64,000 nt of DNA from Lysinibacillus xylanilyticus (GTDB lineage Bacteria; Bacillota; Bacilli; Bacillales_A; Planococcaceae): the NCBI RefSeq assembly GCF_001708185.1, contig NZ_MDDN01000002.1, forward strand, positions 372,001 through 436,000. The letters run 5' to 3'. A program made the position numbers and the translations under genes. Below the pieces are notes generated by a model. The model made no database searches, was not told where the DNA came from, and worked only from the letters and a program-made list of their open reading frames with translations. Shown here piece by piece: positions 44,392-61,093 of the stretch; positions within the stretch are counted from its first letter, which is position 1; every line of letters begins with the position of its first letter.

Positions 44392-44757
44392 TTACCGATT
44401 TTTATTTAAGTATTGTAATAAATAATCAACAATCACAAATATCGTTATATAAATACTACCTATTGAGGAAGTTAGATAAAAAGTATCTTTAAAAATATCA
44501 ATATTAGCTAAACTAATTAGTATTGAAAAAATGAATGTGCAAATTAAGTGCTTAATATATATAAATACAACATTTTTATTTTTACTGTATTTTTCAATCA
44601 CAATTGATACCACTACAGCTACAAGCATGGCAGGTGCAGTAAATGCAGTACCATAAATACCATATGAAATGCTATACGTATATTCAATAAATAATGGAAT
44701 AATAAATATCCCTAGAATTAATGTAATGACAGCTGAAATAATTTTGTTTTTCAACAT
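44392..44757 (-). CDS. Four-TM membrane protein, chromosomal copy
   Basis: 121 residues with four hydrophobic segments and a conserved middle EKYSKNKNVVFIYIKHLICT. It is about three-quarters identical to the protein at 49623-49994, and the flanking DNA is also similar. It lies just outside the prophage attachment junction, so it is probably left from an earlier related prophage. No known domain; an immunity, holin-like or exclusion role is conceivable. Confidence 0.6.
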   Translation of the reverse strand: MLKNKIISAVITLILGIFIIPLFIEYTYSISYGIYGTAFTAPAMLVAVVVSIVIEKYSKNKNVVFIYIKHLICTFIFSILISLANIDIFKDTFYLTSSIGSIYITIFVIVDYLLQYLNKNR

Positions 44758-45129
44758 CACACTTCACATCCCTGATTCATTTTTTATGCTTTTAAAAAAT
44801 GCCATGGAAATAAGACATAATCAACAATATGTAAAAATTCAATTCAACATTAAATTTATGTACCTCTTTATTAAATCATATAACCACAGTAAATAGTAAA
44901 AATTTTACTTTTTTCATATAAATTTATAAGTAATTTTTAAACCAATACGGCAATTAAGTAATCTAGGTCTTTATTGTTACTAGAATAGATTCGTCATACG
45001 ATAAATGCCAAGACATTTCATTTCAACAACTGCTTGTATTGCGTATGTTCTAGTAATGAATCGTCAATTGTTACTATATCGGACGATTTGTACATAATTA
45101 GCATTTACAATCTTGTATTTACCAAGTGC

Positions 45130-45717: not shown

Positions 45718-46650
45718 TTAATTACTACTATCTCTAAGTAAATTTACCTTTTCATCAACCTTAGATTGGATATTTCTGCCTATTTCTAAAACCAAATCAA
45801 TTTTTTTATCTAATGACCAGTCGTTTTCGCTAACTGCATCACCATAACTAGCAATAATTTTAGGTATAATCTCTAAAGTTATCATTAATATAACTTTGGA
45901 TTTCAAAGAATCAGGAAGTTCCATAAAATGGGAACCCGTGTAATTTTCAAAATTTATATCAATTGATCCATTCAATTTCAGAAATAGTTCAATTGTGTGA
46001 TCCTCATATTCTAGTATAGGTTTTACATAAGACACTCCCTCGTTTTCGAACAAGAAAGCTAAAGTACTCAAAGCATTCATTATCCTGTTCCCAGAACCAA
46101 TAACTTCTGCGAGCTGATTATCAGTAGATCCCTTAAAACCAACTATTTTTTTTATTACTAAATGAGATTCTTCATCGATTGAATCACTTTCATTATTTAG
46201 TACTTTTGAAATCATCCATATAAAAAAATCTTCTGTAATATTATAGCTATTTGATTTAATTTCTCCCTGTCCTCTATAATTATTGATTTTACGTAAGATC
46301 GTCTTCGTTGCATCGTTATTTGATTTATTTACTATTAGTTGAGTTCTATAACCGTCTGTAAATATCACAATAAAACCATTATTGTTTGCAATACGAGCTG
46401 AACGCATTTCATTTCTTTCTTCCCCTGAACGCGGTTTTTCATACACAAATTTTATCATATTATACTTTATTTCAGTATTATTTAAATTAATAGTTTGTGT
46501 TTCTTCAAAAACTTTTTCATTATAAAAACTTAGTGTATCACCTGTAAAAGGATCAATATAAGGTGTACACCATTCACTATAATTAAGCATATTTCCAATT
46601 ATTTCTTCCATTTGATTACCTGTATCATCAGACCATCTTGAAAGTACCAT
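45718..46650 (-). CDS. Unknown protein, third gene of prophage accessory operon
   Basis: 310 residues, soluble, acidic, not recognised. An N-terminal region contains SARIANNNGFIVIFTDGYRT, and a helical C-terminal half contains EVIGSGNRIMNALSTLAFLF. No nucleotide-binding or nuclease motif is evident. It starts 3 nt after the preceding membrane-protein gene with an AGGGGAAA site, so the three genes form one transcript. A place between lysis genes and the attachment site is typical for lysogenic-conversion or anti-phage genes. Confidence 0.7.
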   Translation of the reverse strand: MVLSRWSDDTGNQMEEIIGNMLNYSEWCTPYIDPFTGDTLSFYNEKVFEETQTINLNNTEIKYNMIKFVYEKPRSGEERNEMRSARIANNNGFIVIFTDGYRTQLIVNKSNNDATKTILRKINNYRGQGEIKSNSYNITEDFFIWMISKVLNNESDSIDEESHLVIKKIVGFKGSTDNQLAEVIGSGNRIMNALSTLAFLFENEGVSYVKPILEYEDHTIELFLKLNGSIDINFENYTGSHFMELPDSLKSKVILMITLEIIPKIIASYGDAVSENDWSLDKKIDLVLEIGRNIQSKVDEKVNLLRDSSN

Positions 46651-46653
46651 ATT

Positions 46654-47277
46654 CTATTTCCCCTCTAACTCTATTTTTATACCATCTTTTATTATAAAAG
46701 TCATTATACGTCTTTTTTTAGAGATAATAGTTGGTTTAATTAAAACAAAATTATTAACATCTTCATTCCCAATTAAATCTATTTCAAAATTTCTTTTTTC
46801 TGTTATTTTCCCAGTGTCGTTAATCATCTTTAATAAATCTATTTCATATTTATTTTCAGAATCATTAAAAATCAAATCTTTACTTCTTTTTGGTTGTGTA
46901 TCAATCCAATTAGGAAAGACAATAATTATTTTTTCAGGTAAATCTTTATAATTACCTTCTATATTTACCTCAAAAATAATTCTTTTGTTTTTCTTACTAT
47001 TAATTTTTAATTCCCTTAATCTCTCTTTAGTATAATGAATACTTATAGTCAATTTAGTCCTCTTCGAAATAAACCAATAGACCACAAATGAAACAATTAT
47101 CAAAGCAATTAAATTATATATCCCTAAATCAATAAACCAAATCACTCTTTTATCTTCTATTTTAGTTATACTTTTTGTTACAGAAATGCCTAGCGACAAA
47201 GGTATTGAAACTAATAATAAGACAGTGAAATTCTTGAAATATGAAAAAAGTTCTTTCTTTAGATCCTCTTTTTTCAT
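46654..47277 (-). CDS. Two-TM membrane protein, second gene of prophage accessory operon
   Basis: 207 residues. Two membrane helices (about 14-33 and 44-68) precede a cytoplasmic Lys- and Ile-rich beta domain (about 70-207) with IIFEVNIEGNYKDLPEKIII and FEIDLIGNEDVNNFVLIKPT, which looks like a Cap15-like or other beta-sandwich sensor but is not assignable. ATGA overlap with the upstream gene. Membrane effector plus soluble partners is a common layout of abortive-infection systems; this is inference. Confidence 0.65.
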   Translation of the reverse strand: MKKEDLKKELFSYFKNFTVLLLVSIPLSLGISVTKSITKIEDKRVIWFIDLGIYNLIALIIVSFVVYWFISKRTKLTISIHYTKERLRELKINSKKNKRIIFEVNIEGNYKDLPEKIIIVFPNWIDTQPKRSKDLIFNDSENKYEIDLLKMINDTGKITEKRNFEIDLIGNEDVNNFVLIKPTIISKKRRIMTFIIKDGIKIELEGK

Positions 47278-47750
47278 TCTAAATAACCCTTAAAAACATG
47301 AATAAGTATTTCTTCGAAAATAACATTAATATTTTCTCCCCCAATTATTTGTCCGTTGGAGTATATTTCAAATTTACTGTTTTTATAAAGCAATTCTATT
47401 CTAGATATATCTATTGAATTATTATCAACCGTCCAATCAAGTAACTCTTTTAGTTCAATAAAAGACATAGGTTTATGTCTTATTTTTAAAATTAAATCTT
47501 TAACTTTTCCTGTTAAATATTCATCTATACTTTCGGTAAAATGAATACCCAAGATAAAACCGTTATTTTGTATTACTTGACTCATTATTTCAATCATTAA
47601 CTCAGAATTAATAATTAATTGTTTAAATCCACGTTTCTTCATTTCACAAATGACTTCATGATATTTTTTTTCATCTGGTTTATATATATTTAGATTGAAA
47701 TCTATTTCTTCTGCACTATACTTTCTAAATATTTTTCCGTACGCTTCCAT
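47274..47750 (-). CDS. Unknown soluble protein, first gene of prophage accessory operon
   Basis: 158 residues, no membrane segment. Predicted alternating helices and strands with NSELMIEIMSQVIQNNGFIL and a C-terminal IIGGENINVIFEEILIHVFK. Not recognised. Ribosome site AAGGAGAG 6 nt before ATG. It leads a three-gene operon whose members overlap or nearly touch. Confidence 0.65.
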   Translation of the reverse strand: MEAYGKIFRKYSAEEIDFNLNIYKPDEKKYHEVICEMKKRGFKQLIINSELMIEIMSQVIQNNGFILGIHFTESIDEYLTGKVKDLILKIRHKPMSFIELKELLDWTVDNNSIDISRIELLYKNSKFEIYSNGQIIGGENINVIFEEILIHVFKGYLE

Positions 47751-48028: not shown

Positions 48029-48226
48029 TTAAATCTCAACTAAATTAACTAAGTCAGAAAAGCTAGGTACGTTGTTAAATTTAATTTTCTCCATTGTTTC
48101 TATAATCACCAAATTTAATTCCTGTTCTAAATCCTCTCTATTATTAGCAGCTGTTTGGTGCAATAATTTTTTTATTTTTGGCTGCATTAATTCGATTACT
48201 TCAAGTGAATCTAATTCATATTCCAT
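48029..48226 (-). CDS. Sigma region-2-like small protein (split sigma partner)
   Basis: 65 residues. PKIKKLLHQTAANNREDLEQ followed by ELNLVIIETMEKI matches the start of sigma-70 region 2 (the DLxQE helix) and little else. It lies 13 nt after a gene for a sigma region-4 protein and has its own AAGGAG site. Bacillus SigO and RsoA (YvrI and YvrHa) are a known pair in which regions 4 and 2 are on separate proteins. A similar two-part sigma is the most economical reading; the protein is shorter than RsoA. Confidence 0.65.
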   Translation of the reverse strand: MEYELDSLEVIELMQPKIKKLLHQTAANNREDLEQELNLVIIETMEKIKFNNVPSFSDLVNLVEI

Positions 48227-48239
48227 TTATAAATACTCC

Positions 48240-48755
48240 TTATTTAATAGCATTAGCATTTAAACCACTTTGGATTTCTTTGATTGCTTTATTTTTCCCT
48301 TTGTTAACAGCTTGTTGAGAAATGTTCATAATACTTGCTGCTTCAATTTCAGTCATTTCTTTTATATGAAGCAAATATAAAATTTGTTTTTGTCTGTCAG
48401 TCAATTTATTTATAGCTTTAAAAATGCTTTTATCCGCAACGTAGTTTGCAATATTATCAGAATCAGTGACATTAATATTTTCTGCATAGAAAAAACTATC
48501 TTCGTTTTGTTCAAGTAACTCTTCTTTAAAGCTTTGATATCTTCTAATTTTTTGATCATATTTCTGTGCTGCATAATACAATGATTTTGAAAAATAAGTT
48601 ACCAGCACTATCTTTGAATAAAATATCTTAAACTCTTTCTCTAATAACTCCATAATGTTTTTATCTCTATTAATTTTGTATTCTTCAAACAATATCTTAT
48701 TTTTCTCAATAGCTAAAAAATTATGTAGTACTATATTTAAATATGTTTTGCCCAA
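48240..48755 (-). CDS. Sigma-70-like factor with region 4
   Basis: 171 residues, TTG start 7-8 nt after AGGAGGGG. The N-terminal half is helical; the C-terminal third is a clear sigma region 4: INKLTDRQKQILYLLHIKEM, TEIEAASIMNISQQAVNKGK. Similar in size to UviA/BotR-type and SigO-type factors that switch on toxin or bacteriocin genes. Its promoter region holds a perfect LexA box, and the divergent DUF3238 gene is the likely target. Confidence 0.8.
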   Translation of the reverse strand: MGKTYLNIVLHNFLAIEKNKILFEEYKINRDKNIMELLEKEFKIFYSKIVLVTYFSKSLYYAAQKYDQKIRRYQSFKEELLEQNEDSFFYAENINVTDSDNIANYVADKSIFKAINKLTDRQKQILYLLHIKEMTEIEAASIMNISQQAVNKGKNKAIKEIQSGLNANAIK

Positions 48756-48770
48756 AATACCCCTCCTAAA

Positions 48771-48786
48771 AAGAACGTACGTTCTT
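48771..48786. promoter_or_regulatory. LexA (SOS) box
   Basis: AAGAACGTACGTTCTT is a perfect palindrome containing GAAC-N4-GTTC, the Bacillus LexA operator core. It lies 16 bp before the sigma gene start, overlapping or just downstream of a possible -10 (TATATT, minus strand, about 48788-48793). It should repress the sigma gene until DNA damage. Confidence 0.8.
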
Positions 48787-48812
48787 AATATAAAGGTGTT
48801 TTTCTTTAGTTA

Positions 48813-48850
48813 AAAAACAACCAAAAATTTAATTTTTTTTGGTTGTTTTT
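48813..48850. terminator. Perfect hairpin between the sigma and DUF3238 genes
   Basis: 15-bp arms AAAAACAACCAAAAA and its complement around an 8-nt AT loop. Symmetric A/T flanks would let it end transcription in both directions and insulate the DUF3238 gene from read-through, or it may be part of the promoter read by the alternative sigma. Confidence 0.5.
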
Positions 48851-48922
48851 CGTTAGGAAAATGAGCCTTTCCAATACGTAAGGTAATTACACTACTTATC
48901 ACAAAAATTAGGAGGCTATATT

Positions 48923-49522
48923 ATGACAAAATTAGAATTACGTTTACGCACATTTTTACCATTTAAGTATGTAGAACACCCTATCCACCCAAAAACTTCG
49001 CGTTTCCACGGTGATACACGAAAAGAAGCTGATTGGAATTCAACTAAATACAGAACATCACAAAGTTTCTCTATTGACACGTCTAAAGCTAATTATGGTG
49101 TTAAAGGGACAGCTAAAGTAGGTCAAACAATCCAAGAAGACCTGGTGAAAGGTAAATGGAAAGTAACAAAAAAAGAGACAGCATCTGAATCTGGCTTACA
49201 ATACAATACAAATATCCTTGACGATGTTCTATATATTAACTGTAAATGCGCTATGAAAAATCCATTAGTTAAATTAGCACCTGCAATTGACTATACTTTC
49301 GTAATTAAAGTAACTCGTACAGGTAGTGTACGAATAAAAGGTCAACGTGATGGATTCCCTGCGTATGAATTTATGCGTAAAATTTATTCCATGAAAAAAG
49401 GCCCAGAAGTAATTTATTCAGCTGTTCCAGAGAGCCCTAAAGAAATTGGAGGCCTTTATCCATTCTTAAATAGTGAATGGGTGGACGTTGGTCGCTCATA
49501 CGATAGTTCGAAAAATAACTAA
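48923..49522 (+). CDS. DUF3238 protein, candidate bacteriocin or secreted effector
   Basis: 199 residues. The DUF3238 pattern is clear: LRTFLPFKYVEHPI, SRFHGDTRKEADWN, AIDYTFVIKV and GQRDGFPAYEF. No signal peptide, so release would need lysis. TTAGGAGG precedes the ATG by 7 nt. Divergent from a split sigma factor behind an SOS box and followed by its own terminator. DUF3238 genes occur near bacteriocin-type sigma factors in Gram-positives as I recall; the activity of the product is not known to me. Confidence 0.75.
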   Translation: MTKLELRLRTFLPFKYVEHPIHPKTSRFHGDTRKEADWNSTKYRTSQSFSIDTSKANYGVKGTAKVGQTIQEDLVKGKWKVTKKETASESGLQYNTNILDDVLYINCKCAMKNPLVKLAPAIDYTFVIKVTRTGSVRIKGQRDGFPAYEFMRKIYSMKKGPEVIYSAVPESPKEIGGLYPFLNSEWVDVGRSYDSSKNN

Positions 49523-49527
49523 AAATA

Positions 49528-49553
49528 AAAAGACCGTTTTAACGGTCTTTTTT
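49528..49553 (+). terminator. Terminator of the DUF3238 gene
   Basis: AAAAAGACCGTT-TTAACGGTCTTTTTT hairpin with a T run. Confidence 0.88.
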
Positions 49554-49622: not shown

Positions 49623-49994
49623 TTATCTACTCTTATTTAAACTTTTTAACAAATAATCAAAGATCACAAATATTGTTATATAAATACTACCCATTAAAGT
49701 AGCTAGATAAATAGTATCTTTAAAAGTATTAATATCAAAATTAACTAAACTAAATAATAGCGCAAAAATTAATGCACAAAGTAAATGCTTAATATACATA
49801 AATATAACATTTTTATTTTTACTGTATTTTTCAATCGCAACTGATACCACAACAGCTACAAACATAGCTGGTGCAGTAAATGCAGTACCATAAATACCAT
49901 GTGCAATGCTATATGTAGATCCAATAAATAATGGGATAATAAATACTCCTAGAATTAATGTAATTACAGCTGAAATAATTTTATTTTTCAACAT
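49623..49994 (-). CDS. Four-TM membrane protein, prophage copy
   Basis: 123 residues, four hydrophobic segments, about three-quarters identical to the protein at 44392-44757 (shared MLKNKIISAVITLILG, GIYGTAFTAPAM, EKYSKNKNV). It lies between the DUF3238 gene and the lysis genes. The pair on both sides of the attachment site may derive from two related prophages. Possibly an immunity or holin-like protein; unproven. Confidence 0.65.
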   Translation of the reverse strand: MLKNKIISAVITLILGVFIIPLFIGSTYSIAHGIYGTAFTAPAMFVAVVVSVAIEKYSKNKNVIFMYIKHLLCALIFALLFSLVNFDINTFKDTIYLATLMGSIYITIFVIFDYLLKSLNKSR

Positions 49995-50321: not shown

Positions 50322-51005
50322 TTACAATGTTCGTTTCACTACTGAAATCAGCAATCCCAACGCTTCTCCATCTGTCATAGAGCCTACTTTTCCGCTATGG
50401 TCCACCTTTAAAATTCCTTTTTGATACGTTGTTTTTAATAGTGCTCTTAAATCCTCTTTTGCTGTTGATGTTAATGAGTTTGCCATCTTTATTTCCTCCT
50501 TTGGTTGTGTTGGTGTTGCTGGCTTCATAGCCTGTTCAATTCGTTTTAAAAAGCTATTCCAGCGATTTTCACTCAAGATACGATGCGGACAGTATTTTCC
50601 GTTCCAGTCCTGATGTTTTTTCACACGATCAATGCCCCATCCGTACTTTTTTAAAAGTTTAACAATGTATTGCACCGCATTTTCTTCGGCTAATGCGTAA
50701 CGCATGCCACCACTTTTGCTGTAACAGATTTCAACACCGATTGATTTCATATTCCCATTACCGGTGCCATCGCCACAATGCCAAGCGTTGCGATTGAATG
50801 GAATAGCTTGAATTACTTCTTTGTCATCTACAGCGACATGATAAGATACTTGATTGTTATTGCTTATCATGTATTTAACTTCATTTGCTGCAGACGCATC
50901 GTTTGCTGTGTTGTGTACTGTAATGAATTGAGGAGTCATGCTATATGGTGATTTAATAGGGTATTTGCTAGATGACAATATATTTTGTCTCAATGCGTAA
51001 CTCAC
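50322..51005 (-). CDS. Phage N-acetylmuramoyl-L-alanine amidase (endolysin)
   Basis: 227 residues. Amidase_2 domain with zinc ligands His31 (FITVHNTAND), a second His near 131 (KKHQDWNG) and Cys139 (KYCPHR). A Pro-rich linker follows at about 160-175, then a short C-terminal domain (SLTSTAKEDLRALLKTTYQK) likely for wall binding. It cuts the peptide stem from glycan at phage release. Overlaps the holin gene by 4 nt. Confidence 0.93.
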   Translation of the reverse strand: MSYALRQNILSSSKYPIKSPYSMTPQFITVHNTANDASAANEVKYMISNNNQVSYHVAVDDKEVIQAIPFNRNAWHCGDGTGNGNMKSIGVEICYSKSGGMRYALAEENAVQYIVKLLKKYGWGIDRVKKHQDWNGKYCPHRILSENRWNSFLKRIEQAMKPATPTQPKEEIKMANSLTSTAKEDLRALLKTTYQKGILKVDHSGKVGSMTDGEALGLLISVVKRTL

Positions 51006-51265
51006 TTAGCATCAACCTTTCTAGGAGCATCATAATTAAGAGCCTGTACGCTGTCTGAAGTCCCTTTAGTGGTTGGGTCAATGATTATACCTAGCAACGC
51101 TAAAATACTTAAAACGGTCTCTGAAATAGCCGTTACTTGGTCGTTATAAATTGTAATATCGACATTAAAAATGCCCGCAATTTGATTCGCGAGCACAATA
51201 AGCAATGCAATTAATGACACCCAAAATTGTTTATGTTGTAAACGTACTTTCCAATTAATTTTCAT
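51002..51265 (-). CDS. Phage holin (phi LC3 type)
   Basis: 87 residues from ATG 51265, 10 nt after AGGAG. WKVRLQHKQFWVSLIALLIV starts the first membrane helix, a second follows (TVLSILALLGIIIDPTT), and the tail GTSDSVQALNYDAPRK is typical of the family. It opens the membrane for the amidase. Confidence 0.9.
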   Translation of the reverse strand: MKINWKVRLQHKQFWVSLIALLIVLANQIAGIFNVDITIYNDQVTAISETVLSILALLGIIIDPTTKGTSDSVQALNYDAPRKVDAK

Positions 51266-51545
51266 GTTGTACACTCTCCTCAGTTTGTTTTTGTATACCT
51301 GCTACTTTTTCTAATACAACAATACGAACCTCATGATTATTGATACGTTTTGCTGATTCCTTTGAAGTTTCGTCAACCTCGTTTAAATGTTGGTTTAATC
51401 TGTCTATGCCATTAGTTAAACTAAGTAGCGTTTTATTTAGGTCGTTTGTAATGCGCCAAATAAATAAAAGACCTCCAATCAGCGCTGATACAATCGGCAA
51501 CCAATTATTGATAGTTTCCACCAATGTTCTCACCTTCTTTTCCAA
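51255..51545 (-). CDS. Membrane-anchored coiled-coil phage protein (XhlA-like)
   Basis: 96 residues. One N-terminal membrane helix (about 13-30) and a long heptad-like helix (LNQHLNEVDETSKESAKRIN). In PBSX-type phages a protein of this design lies before the holin and assists lysis. Overlaps the holin gene by 11 nt. Confidence 0.65.
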   Translation of the reverse strand: MEKKVRTLVETINNWLPIVSALIGGLLFIWRITNDLNKTLLSLTNGIDRLNQHLNEVDETSKESAKRINNHEVRIVVLEKVAGIQKQTEESVQHEN

Positions 51546-58196: not shown

Positions 58197-58869
58197 GTTT
58201 AATCACCTGCCCAACCTTTATAACGTCTGGATTGCTAATGTTATTTAATTTTGCTAGTTCAGTATATTTCGATCCATCACCTAGATACTTTTTAGCGATA
58301 GCCCACAACGTATCACCTTTTTTTACAGTATACGTTTTTGGTGTCTCCTTGCCTGTTGTTGGACGTTTTTGCTCTACGACAGCCTTTTGTGTTGTCGTAG
58401 AGCTAGACGCGCCATTAGACTGTGTAGTAGGCTGTACAACGATTCGTTTATTGCCGTATGCTCGATATTGTTTTAGTTGGATACTAACTGTTACATCAAA
58501 GCCATTTTCTGCTGATTCCATTATCTCGTAACTCTCTATAGCCATCGTCATATTGGTATCAAAAAGTAGATTACCATTAGGCATCATCCGATTAACGATT
58601 AACTGAAATGGCTTATCCGAGAACTTTAATTTCTCTAACTTTTCAAGATAAAATGCAGCTGGTTGAAAACCATTCGGATAAACAGCAAACGGATATTTGA
58701 TGTTTGGGAGTAATACCTCAAACTCAATATCCGTTAGCCCTGGTTTCTTTATTACGTTTACTTCACCATCATTCATCAGCACAATCGTTTCGTTACGCCC
58801 ATTAATTTTAGTAGACATTTCAGATGGAGCAACAGGAAATTGTACACCATCTACAAAAAAGTTATACAT
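58189..58869 (-). CDS. XkdP-type tail protein with LysM domain
   Basis: 226 residues. N-terminal tail domain (VAPSEMSTKINGRNETIVLM) and a C-terminal LysM (YTVKKGDTLWAIAKKYLGDG, NISNPDVIKVGQVIKLG at about 180-226) joined by a Ser/Thr-rich linker. It connects tail tube and baseplate and may touch peptidoglycan. Overlaps the tape-measure gene by 8 nt. Confidence 0.88.
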   Translation of the reverse strand: MYNFFVDGVQFPVAPSEMSTKINGRNETIVLMNDGEVNVIKKPGLTDIEFEVLLPNIKYPFAVYPNGFQPAAFYLEKLEKLKFSDKPFQLIVNRMMPNGNLLFDTNMTMAIESYEIMESAENGFDVTVSIQLKQYRAYGNKRIVVQPTTQSNGASSSTTTQKAVVEQKRPTTGKETPKTYTVKKGDTLWAIAKKYLGDGSKYTELAKLNNISNPDVIKVGQVIKLG

Positions 58870-61093
58870 CTTCTGTTGGACCTCCTTCCGCTAACATATC
58901 TGCTACTTCCTCGGCACGTTCACCGAAACGATCAATAACACCATCGATGTCCATTTCGCTGTTGATATGATTTTCATTCTTCATATCGATATTGATTTCA
59001 GCTGTAGTATATCGATTGATTGCTTCTCTCTCTGCGATGTCTCGAAGGTATTTTAGATCTTCTCCAGAGCCTTCCATTGACTTCGCCATTTTTGCTGTAT
59101 TGCCAGCTGTTTTGCCACCGTTACGGTTCCCCTTATCTAACTTATCACCTAAATCACCAGCTCCAGCACCTTTATTAGCATTCGCATTCTTCATTGCGTC
59201 TTCCATTGCTTTTTGTACGTTATCTGGACCTTTAACCTTCTCCGTATTTTTATCTGAGTTAAATAAATCTGCACCCCAGTTGTAACCTGTATCCCATGCT
59301 GATCCCAAAGACTTCATTTCCATTTTCGGTGCTTCCCAGTAATCAGCAGGAGTTTCGCCAACCCAATCATTAACACCTTTTTTTAATTTTGATAAATCTG
59401 CTGTTACAGATGTTCTAGCACTAAACTCACTCATTTTTCCAATGTCAATACCAGGTACTTTATTAAGAGCATCGATAACCCAGTTGATTGCTTGTATCGC
59501 CATATTAGCACCACTAATGAACATATTAGCAAGATTTGTGGCAGCACTATCAAAACTTCCAATCATACTTATTGCCATATCTAGAGCGTTATTTGCTAGG
59601 TTTCCTAATAACCGTTTTACTGCGTATACTCCGTGTTTTTTAGCATTCACAAAGAATTCTACGTAGGAAGCCCACATATTCCACATATAGGCTATTACGT
59701 TATAAACGACAGTTCCTAAAACCATAAATGCTCCAGCTATTATCCCAGTAGCACTTATTGAGGTTCCAGCAAAGTGATTTACTACGGCGATTGCTAAATA
59801 AAATATAGCAATTAAAGCGATGACTAATATAATAATCCACGTTAATGGACAAGCATATAAGGCAGCGTTTAGGCCATTTTGAGCAACAATTAAACCTAAT
59901 ATAGCTGCCGTTTGAGCCCACGACACCATTGTGCTCCAAATTTTAGTTGCAATGTCCTTTAGTGTTGTAAACCACGCTATCCCCATTGTTGCGTTGTACA
60001 CAATTAATGCTGCTGTAACACCCCAAATAGCAGGTTCTATGATTGACCAATTGTCATAAATAAAACTTCCTCCAACTGCTAAAGTATCCAATGTGAACAT
60101 GGCTACATCAGCCATTTGGTTTAAAGCAGCAATTGTATTTGCAACCACTTGTTGGAATCTATCACTATTGGCGATTTCATTTAATTTGACTAACACACCT
60201 TGAAATGCCCATAATGCTTCGTTTTTGAAACTTGTCCACAATTGAGCCCATGTCATTGGCATACTTTCGAATTTTTTATTAATATCATCAGCAGCAGCAA
60301 ACATCGATGCTTTTACTATGTCAGCAGTTATCTTTCCGTCGCTAGCCATTTTTCTTATTTGTCCGATAGAAACATCTAGATAATCAGCGATAGTTTGAAT
60401 TACATTTGGAGTAGCTTCGAATACAGCGTTCAACTCTTCGCCGCGTAGTACGCCACTTCCCATAGCTTGTGTTAATTGTAAAGTTGCCGACTGAACACCC
60501 TCAATATTTGTTCCTGCTATTACAAATTGTTTGTTTAATAATTCTCCGAAAGCTATGGTTTCTGCGTTAGATTTGAAAGCGTCCTTTGCATTCATGGCTA
60601 ATTTAGCAACCATGTCAGCTGTATCTGAATAAGAACCTCTAGAGCGTTGAGCACTGTCAAAGATCATTTGTTGTAGTTCGTCAGTTGTTTGTAATTTATC
60701 ATTTATTAAATCCAGTCGTGCGGTTGTATTGGTCAATTCGTCTGATACAGCAAAAACATTACCAACTGCTTGAAAGCTTAAATATGCAGCTGCAATGCCT
60801 ATAATTTTATTTAACAATCCATCAGCTGCATTCGTACCATCTCTAATATTATTGGTAAATCTTTGTTGGGCTGCTGTAGCATTGTTAACTTCACTTTCGA
60901 TTCTATTCATTGCATTTTCGGCCATCGCTAATTCTCTACGTGCTAATTCAATACTAGAGGTATCCATCATTTGTCCAGATGCCGCATGCATAGCTTCCAT
61001 TTGATTAACCATCATTGACACAGCATTATGCATAGCTCGCATCGGCTGACTCAATTGATCTTGGATTTGGATTGCTGTGCGTATTGTAGCCAT
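58862..61093 (-). CDS. Phage tail tape measure protein
   Basis: 743 residues: a helical N-terminus (MRAMHNAVSMMVNQMEAMHA), the tape-measure domain near 150-330 (GEELNAVFEATPNVIQTIAD), several hydrophobic stretches in the middle (about 360-480), and a Lys/Asn/Gly-rich C-terminal part. It sets tail length, so the tail is fairly short. It is the first gene of this late operon in the window: a terminator lies directly upstream, and the tail tube, sheath and chaperone genes that usually precede it are absent here. Confidence 0.92.
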   Translation of the reverse strand: MATIRTAIQIQDQLSQPMRAMHNAVSMMVNQMEAMHAASGQMMDTSSIELARRELAMAENAMNRIESEVNNATAAQQRFTNNIRDGTNAADGLLNKIIGIAAAYLSFQAVGNVFAVSDELTNTTARLDLINDKLQTTDELQQMIFDSAQRSRGSYSDTADMVAKLAMNAKDAFKSNAETIAFGELLNKQFVIAGTNIEGVQSATLQLTQAMGSGVLRGEELNAVFEATPNVIQTIADYLDVSIGQIRKMASDGKITADIVKASMFAAADDINKKFESMPMTWAQLWTSFKNEALWAFQGVLVKLNEIANSDRFQQVVANTIAALNQMADVAMFTLDTLAVGGSFIYDNWSIIEPAIWGVTAALIVYNATMGIAWFTTLKDIATKIWSTMVSWAQTAAILGLIVAQNGLNAALYACPLTWIIILVIALIAIFYLAIAVVNHFAGTSISATGIIAGAFMVLGTVVYNVIAYMWNMWASYVEFFVNAKKHGVYAVKRLLGNLANNALDMAISMIGSFDSAATNLANMFISGANMAIQAINWVIDALNKVPGIDIGKMSEFSARTSVTADLSKLKKGVNDWVGETPADYWEAPKMEMKSLGSAWDTGYNWGADLFNSDKNTEKVKGPDNVQKAMEDAMKNANANKGAGAGDLGDKLDKGNRNGGKTAGNTAKMAKSMEGSGEDLKYLRDIAEREAINRYTTAEINIDMKNENHINSEMDIDGVIDRFGERAEEVADMLAEGGPTEDV

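Follow-up and report, generated by a model that had tools for sequence, protein, structure and literature searches.

A split sigma factor with a LexA-type operator lies divergent from a candidate DUF3238 effector gene in a Lysinibacillus prophage

A 64,000-nucleotide stretch of the 4.76-Mb genome of Lysinibacillus xylanilyticus (assembly GCF_001708185.1, contig NZ_MDDN01000002.1, positions 372,001 to 436,000; hereafter the window) contains a module in which the genes of a two-part sigma factor lie divergent from a gene of the DUF3238 family, which in turn faces the gene of a small membrane protein. The open reading frames (ORFs) of the module were confirmed at the coordinates and on the strands given in a first-pass annotation made from the sequence letters (Table 1). 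The module sits past the lysis genes of a prophage, an amidase and a holin recognized in a Pfam scan of the window proteins, and a tape measure gene lies at 58862-61093. Loci outside the window are referred to by number (L), as are genomes (G) and contigs (C).

Table 1. Features of the module and related elements, in window positions.
Feature	Position	Strand	Basis
SigO-like sigma subunit, region 4 only, 171 aa, TTG start	48240..48755	-	Pfam Sigma70_r4 2.6e-7
RsoA-like subunit, 65 aa, second gene of the operon	48029..48226	-	NCBIfam RsoA 1.1e-8; NF010682 3.7e-16
LexA-type operator GAACGTACGTTC	48773..48784		score 17.1, lexA-operator matrix
Sigma-operon promoter-like element GGTTGT-N20-CCTTT	48792..48822	-	pattern match
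DUF3238 promoter-like element GGTTGT-N19-CCTTT, back to back with the sigma element	48841..48870	+	pattern match
DUF3238 protein, 199 aa, candidate effector	48923..49522	+	PF11579 1.4e-14
Terminator-like stem-loop with T-tract, between two convergent genes	49527..49552		after DUF3238
123-aa protein, four hydrophobic segments, convergent to DUF3238, candidate immunity protein	49623..49994	-	hydropathy count
Second membrane-protein copy, 76% identical, candidate orphan immunity gene	44392..44760	-	sequence comparison
Prophage endolysin (Amidase_2) and holin (Phage_holin_1)	50322..51274	-	Pfam; possible release route

The TTG start codon of the sigma gene is preceded by the ribosome-binding site AGGAGGGG. 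Its product matches Sigma70_r4 at residues 114-161 and gave no region-2 match in the Pfam scan, in agreement with its first-pass description as a region-4 protein; the one named relative found in a scan of named genomes belongs to Lysinibacillus mangiferihumi and is 82% identical. A structure model of this subunit from the single sequence reached a predicted local distance difference test (pLDDT) score of 38.6 and was set aside. The second ORF begins 13 nt past the sigma stop codon and has a ribosome-binding site of its own. No Pfam family matches its 65-residue product, which had been described as resembling sigma region 2; the NCBIfam models NF041489 (RsoA) and NF010682 both do, the latter with 58.7 bits against a curated cut-off of 86. 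When 24 relatives of the protein were aligned, all 24 matched both models, the whole-sigma models matched at most two members each (best 1.2e-5) and Sigma70_r2 matched a single one, at 0.027. There is good reason to predict membership of the RsoA family, and the region-2 assignment would come with it, because RsoA itself is described as the sigma-2 part of SigO-RsoA.

The pairing of the two genes is general. Relatives of the sigma protein are encoded in 35 of 250 genomes of the bacterial family, and of the 40 other places where they lie, we took 39 (one in G072 was omitted); together with a second pair in the L. xylanilyticus genome and the window itself, they make 41 loci. Every one of these has an RsoA-like ORF (phmmer E at most 3.6e-6), adjacent and on the same strand in 35 and, in L047, L048, L064, L068, L070 and L071, on the other strand at 1.6-2.9 kb from the sigma start. 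The first-pass expectation that the genes would co-occur elsewhere is borne out by these counts, and the three-gene layout, with DUF3238 beside both subunits, recurs in L040 (L. mangiferihumi), L142, L143 and L145. A short ORF that looks like YvrJ follows the sigma gene in 23 loci, the window having none; PF12841 matches the two YvrJ-like ORFs that were tested, at L046 (after sigma) and at L078 (before it). Across the class, the RsoA alignment found matches in 57 of 398 genomes, and a sigma partner lies within 1.5 kb in 29 of the 30 loci among the matches listed, which overlap the earlier sigma loci (for example L191, L195 and L203). Plasmids carry the pair as well: a sigma relative is found on 12 plasmid records, and in all six that were opened an RsoA-like ORF, recognized by eye, follows sigma, with YvrJ between them in four. 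The second pair of the L. xylanilyticus genome (L079, C46:107359-121868) is diverged and has an exact LexA-type box upstream; an ORF near it is presumably a subtilisin-like protease, a label given by eye. At eleven loci (L042, L045, L046, L049, L050, L051, L053, L054, L056, L057 and L062) a conserved ORF of about 435 aa with a helix-turn-helix-like start lies divergent from the sigma operon; by eye it is of a peptide-sensing regulator type, and it may give such sigmas a further input.

Between the sigma gene and its promoter-like element stands the GAAC-N4-GTTC palindrome that the first-pass annotation had read as a LexA site. It is exact, and it is the only exact copy in the window. As 0.73 would be expected there by chance, presence alone means little; position and conservation carry the weight, and on these two counts a chance match was rejected. 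The site is identical in L040, and 7 nt separate it from the CCTTT of the sigma promoter, so that the box would cover the start site. The genome as a whole is not enriched in the pattern, since it holds 21 exact sites against 43 for a reversed control pattern; each of the genome's two sigma/RsoA pairs has one of the 21 immediately before it. Its lexA gene has boxes such as AGAACATACATTCC (reverse strand), and its recA gene has CGAATAAATGTTCG. We scored sites with a matrix of 101 boxes from 31 lexA upstream regions, chosen by at most one mismatch to GAAC-N4-GTTC. Against this matrix the window box reaches 17.1, compared with a median of 19.0 and a minimum of 15.3 for the best boxes of the lexA regions and a 99th percentile of 11.9 for controls (438 upstream regions). 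Among 36 sigma representatives of less than 80% identity, drawn from 49, 18 exceed 11.9, compared with five of the 438 controls (Fisher p 1.5e-18), one of those five being the same box viewed from the DUF3238 side in L040. Simple matching gives an exact box in 8/36 representatives and 3/438 controls, and a box with at most one mismatch in 24/36 and 23/438. The class-wide sigma/RsoA pairs exceed 11.9 in 15 cases out of 29, and on four of the six plasmid records opened an exact box stands 30-45 bp before sigma. The sigma promoter thus appears to contain a LexA operator, as would be expected of a member of the LexA (SOS, DNA damage) regulon. Exact GAAC-N4-GTTC palindromes also lie just upstream of two similar recombinase-like ORFs in the same genome (L086 and L099, on C12 and C45), where they are a possible sign of SOS control of a mobile element.

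The sigma operon and the divergent DUF3238 gene are preceded by matching promoter-like elements, GGTTGTT-N18/19-CCTTT. An inverted repeat between the two genes, at one point considered a terminator, was reread as the two divergent -35 elements. The other four matches to GGTTGT-N19/20-CCTTT in the genome lie inside long ORFs, which leaves the two of the module as the only ones outside; in 20,000 shuffles of the intergenic sequence, either element arose in 22 and both in none, and both elements are kept in L040. Many sigma operons share an upstream motif of the form RGTTGW, spacer, CTTTA. A loose version of the pattern, drawn up like the stricter one after inspection of these loci, occurs in 19/36 representatives (window included) and 15/438 controls; the stricter version occurs in 15/36 and 13/438, and the window fails it. 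Similar elements precede an Amidase_2 gene beside a split sigma (L047 and L048) and several unnamed genes of 100-430 aa beside other split sigmas, including a family of 416-436 aa (L043, L044 and L077), proteins of 158-161 aa, of 145-151 aa and others; apart from Amidase_2, the promoter-bearing cargo proteins that were scanned gave no confident family. It appears that one promoter type is shared by the operon and a neighbouring target, as in SigO-RsoA, and the paired elements lend support to the first-pass suggestion that the split sigma transcribes DUF3238.

The divergent gene does encode a DUF3238 protein (54.8 bits against PF11579, gathering cut-off 21.1) and, as first described, ends at a terminator-like stem-loop. 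Its AlphaFold2 model (pLDDT 84.8) is all-beta except for a short end helix, and 3c5p (BAS0735), of the same family and fold, was the only solved structure below E 0.001 in a fold search. Positions with G, R, D, P and E are invariant among 20 aligned members, and one H is nearly so. Class-wide, DUF3238 was found in 65 of 398 genomes at E up to 1e-5. Thirty loci with 1.5-kb flanks included two RsoA matches and three sigma matches, and no split sigma was found at the 21 core-type loci, in which respect the window differs from the core family (the BAS0735 locus lies outside this set). Among 14 matches taken with wide flanks, picked mostly for being outside the core family, both subunits are present at three (L142 in one genome, L143 and L145 in another), a region-4-like ORF at four more (L144, L148, L149 and L155), and a weak region-4-like ORF only (5.7e-4) at L154. 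At L144 (G372:C46, 5467-6763) two ORFs precede DUF3238: one encodes a region-4-like protein of 115 aa, and the other, of 71 aa, is unmatched by the RsoA model and by eye resembles another region-2 type; this locus may hold a second type of split sigma.

By a simple hydropathy count, the gene that converges on DUF3238 encodes a small polytopic membrane protein, the layout seen with bacteriocin immunity genes. The protein is 93% identical in L040. Of 16 DUF3238 loci (the 14 with wide flanks, the window and L040), 12 have a small polytopic membrane gene no more than 1.1 kb away, as do 2 of the 21 core loci, which were covered to 1.5 kb only; the Fisher p of 6e-5 overstates independence because of near-duplicate rows (window/L040, L148/L149 and L150/L151) and because L143 and L145 share one genome. 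One locus of the L. xylanilyticus genome, L128 among the core loci and L154 among the wide-flank ones, stands on both sides of this comparison, and in L128 the small membrane ORF belongs to a longer gene of which only the end was included.

Taken together, the gene content, the operator-like site, the paired promoter-like elements and their recurrence outline a candidate circuit. LexA on the start site would silence the sigma operon; after DNA damage LexA would be cleaved, and the SigO-like and RsoA-like subunits would be produced and assemble into a single two-subunit sigma that directs RNA polymerase to GGTTGTT-N18/19-CCTTT promoters. One such promoter would return to the sigma operon as positive feedback, and the divergent one would serve DUF3238. 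By analogy of layout, the DUF3238 protein would be a bacteriocin-like antibacterial effector, freed when holin and endolysin lyse the cell, and the convergent protein with four transmembrane segments, made from its own promoter, would protect the producer and its kin. We consider the circuit as such quite probable. An antibacterial role of DUF3238 is about evenly balanced, and the reading as a whole, in which LexA gates a split sigma that activates both itself and DUF3238 as a bacteriocin-like effector, with a membrane protein protecting the producer, is the one that we favour with some reserve.

Several findings weigh against this reading. The match of the 65-residue protein to the RsoA model (35 bits) is below the curated cut-off of 100, and a direct comparison with full sigmas, as opposed to its family, speaks neither way: hhalign of the RsoA alignment against six full sigmas of the same genome gave a probability of 0.15%, within the range of 20 shuffles. 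(In a PDB profile search with RsoA, no relevant entry came up to E 10.) The matrix and the simple LexA pattern are not independent, because the boxes were picked by the mismatch rule; 18/36 representatives and 14/29 class-wide pairs have no strong box, and of the DUF3238 loci outside the genus with both subunits, L145 is boxed (17.4) and L142 and L143 are not. The exact promoter pattern is not enriched genome-wide, since it has six matches, this pair included, against 16 for the reversed control; 17/36 representatives lack even the loose pattern, and both patterns share the drawback of their late definition. DUF3238 itself is a candidate only and carries no assigned activity, the fold search gave no informative neighbour beyond 3c5p, and the nearly invariant H is R in the window and in L040. 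As for immunity, the membrane gene is divergent or co-directional at six of the 12 loci that have it, four of the 16 have none nearby, and such a gene also stands near 31 of 134 background ORFs.

The most serious alternative accepts the circuit and takes DUF3238 for something other than a bacteriocin, such as a lysogenic-conversion, phage-exclusion or virion-release protein, with the membrane gene as unrelated cargo. In L040 the structural genes are followed by holin and endolysin, next by the membrane gene, DUF3238, sigma and RsoA, and finally by a gene that by eye resembles an integrase, which puts the module at a usual cargo site, between the lysis genes and the integrase-like gene; no signal peptide is visible by eye, no toxin match was found, and 19 of the 21 core DUF3238 loci are without a small membrane gene nearby. 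Against this stand the homologues of the membrane protein, 60-64% identical, at two split-sigma loci with other cargo (L068 and L071), the convergent membrane genes at L142, L144, L145 and L146, as in the window and L040, and an 8.2-kb Lysinibacillus plasmid, free of annotated phage genes, on which a similar layout combines the promoter element with genes for a glycine-rich hydrophobic protein of 130 aa and, convergent to it, a membrane protein of 108 aa. We regard this alternative as unlikely, yet worth keeping in view.

Two further alternatives concern the input to the LexA-gated circuit that we prefer, and both seem improbable to a similar degree. The pair could be an ordinary stress sigma of the SigO/RsoA type that answers to acid or envelope stress and not to DNA damage; SigO is under acid-stress control, the family is the same, and YvrJ-like ORFs accompany many of these operons, as at SigO. 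The LexA-type box at the start site speaks against this, as do three canonical-looking clusters of SigO, YvrJ, RsoA and oxalate decarboxylase, whose box scores are 1.3, 0.7 and -1.8, and a scan of ten window proteins that yielded no cupin match. Alternatively, the palindrome could be the operator of another dyad-binding repressor of prophage or plasmid origin: the boxes on several plasmids are nearly perfect palindromes (AAGAACATACGTTCTT), beyond most of the lexA boxes listed, and in one group of loci a half-site has drifted to GAAC-N4-ATTC, but the scoring matrix was derived solely from lexA operator regions, and similar boxes are found at chromosomal, plasmid and prophage copies. Transcription of DUF3238 by sigma-A or a late phage activator, with the promoter match due to chance, is the least credible of all, as the 9-of-12 sigma-A-like match at 48896-48924 that favours it has its second hexamer over the DUF3238 start codon, such matches are no commoner in the region than in shuffles (18 against 16.8), and the shuffles and L040 argue for the paired elements.

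Both halves of the proposed circuit have precedents. According to PMC8103513, SigO-RsoA (YvrI-YvrHa) of Bacillus subtilis has its sigma-4 and sigma-2 parts on separate proteins and transcribes its own operon and neighbours. The module shares with it a region-4-only sigma and an RsoA-homologous partner in the same operon (homologous below the curated cut-off); it differs in its LexA-type operator, its prophage carriage and its neighbour, which is DUF3238 and not oxdC, with no cupin among the proteins scanned. As described in PMC4459074, UviA of Clostridium perfringens bacteriocin plasmids, a group V sigma that combines regions 2.4 and 4.2 in a single chain, is a putative sigma for the adjacent bacteriocin gene; production is SOS-induced, and the regulatory region has a putative LexA site. 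The first-pass parallel to UviA holds for the logic, that is, SOS, a sigma and an adjacent bacteriocin-like gene, with UviA as an analogue and not a demonstrated homologue. The window sigma has no region-2 match in the same chain, and the cargo is unrelated. Judged by sequence, the module is a split sigma of the SigO-RsoA type and not a one-chain sigma of the UviA type. In colicin-type loci the toxin gene is under SOS control and faces the gene of a small immunity protein of the membrane. The module resembles them in this layout and differs in its dedicated sigma and in its candidate toxin, which is of an unrelated family.

Split sigmas and SOS-sigma-bacteriocin circuits are thus each already known. 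In open-licence PubMed Central we found SigO-RsoA as the only split sigma, no report joining a split sigma with an SOS-driven bacteriocin circuit, no SOS paper for YvrI/RsoA, two-subunit sigmas or YvrJ, and no paper assigning DUF3238 a function. The first-pass claim that a LexA-controlled split sigma in a prophage would be a new combination survives as far as this literature goes; LexA-linked split sigmas are widespread and not special to this prophage. A wider proposal, which we advance tentatively and hold somewhat less probable than its converse, is that the two-subunit sigmas of Bacilli serve chiefly to switch on exchangeable bacteriocin-like cargo after DNA damage, be it on prophages, plasmids or chromosomes, that DUF3238 and several unnamed small genes represent new families of toxins paired with membrane immunity proteins, and that B. 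subtilis SigO-RsoA is an offshoot without LexA control. If so, the relatives of SigO-RsoA would be a damage-triggered two-part switch that commits the cell to antibacterial proteins, the shared promoter would be a tool for spotting unrecognized bacteriocins, and DUF3238, whose structure 3c5p was deposited as that of a protein of unknown function, would gain a testable role.

Megacin A of Priestia megaterium is a UV-inducible phospholipase A2; no paper on megacin regulation was found in open-licence PubMed Central. On the Geobacillus plasmid pGeo12b (L110:8581-9493) a gene that follows the same promoter type is weakly phospholipase-A2-like (PF08398 0.0017, below cut-off), near a split-sigma gene interrupted by an IS21 element. 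The likeness to megacin A is a weak match and a lead only.

Carriage of the module by deposited phages looks rare, because none of the window proteins sigma, RsoA and DUF3238 had a match among phage records, and neither did another sigma (L108) or another RsoA (L079). IMG/VR, searched for close relatives only, contained one matching contig, which resembles the L. mangiferihumi prophage. A PADLOC scan of nine window proteins, including DUF3238 and both membrane proteins, gave no match up to E 0.1. Further on the contig of the window (L088) lies an ORF that is presumably a terminase small subunit; this label, like OxdC, integrase and others, was given by eye. Three closely spaced ORFs of 158, 207 and 310 aa (45718-47750, minus strand) are located between the module and the second membrane-protein copy. 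They have no confident match in Pfam, PHROG, NCBIfam or PADLOC, and are possibly a prophage cargo operon.

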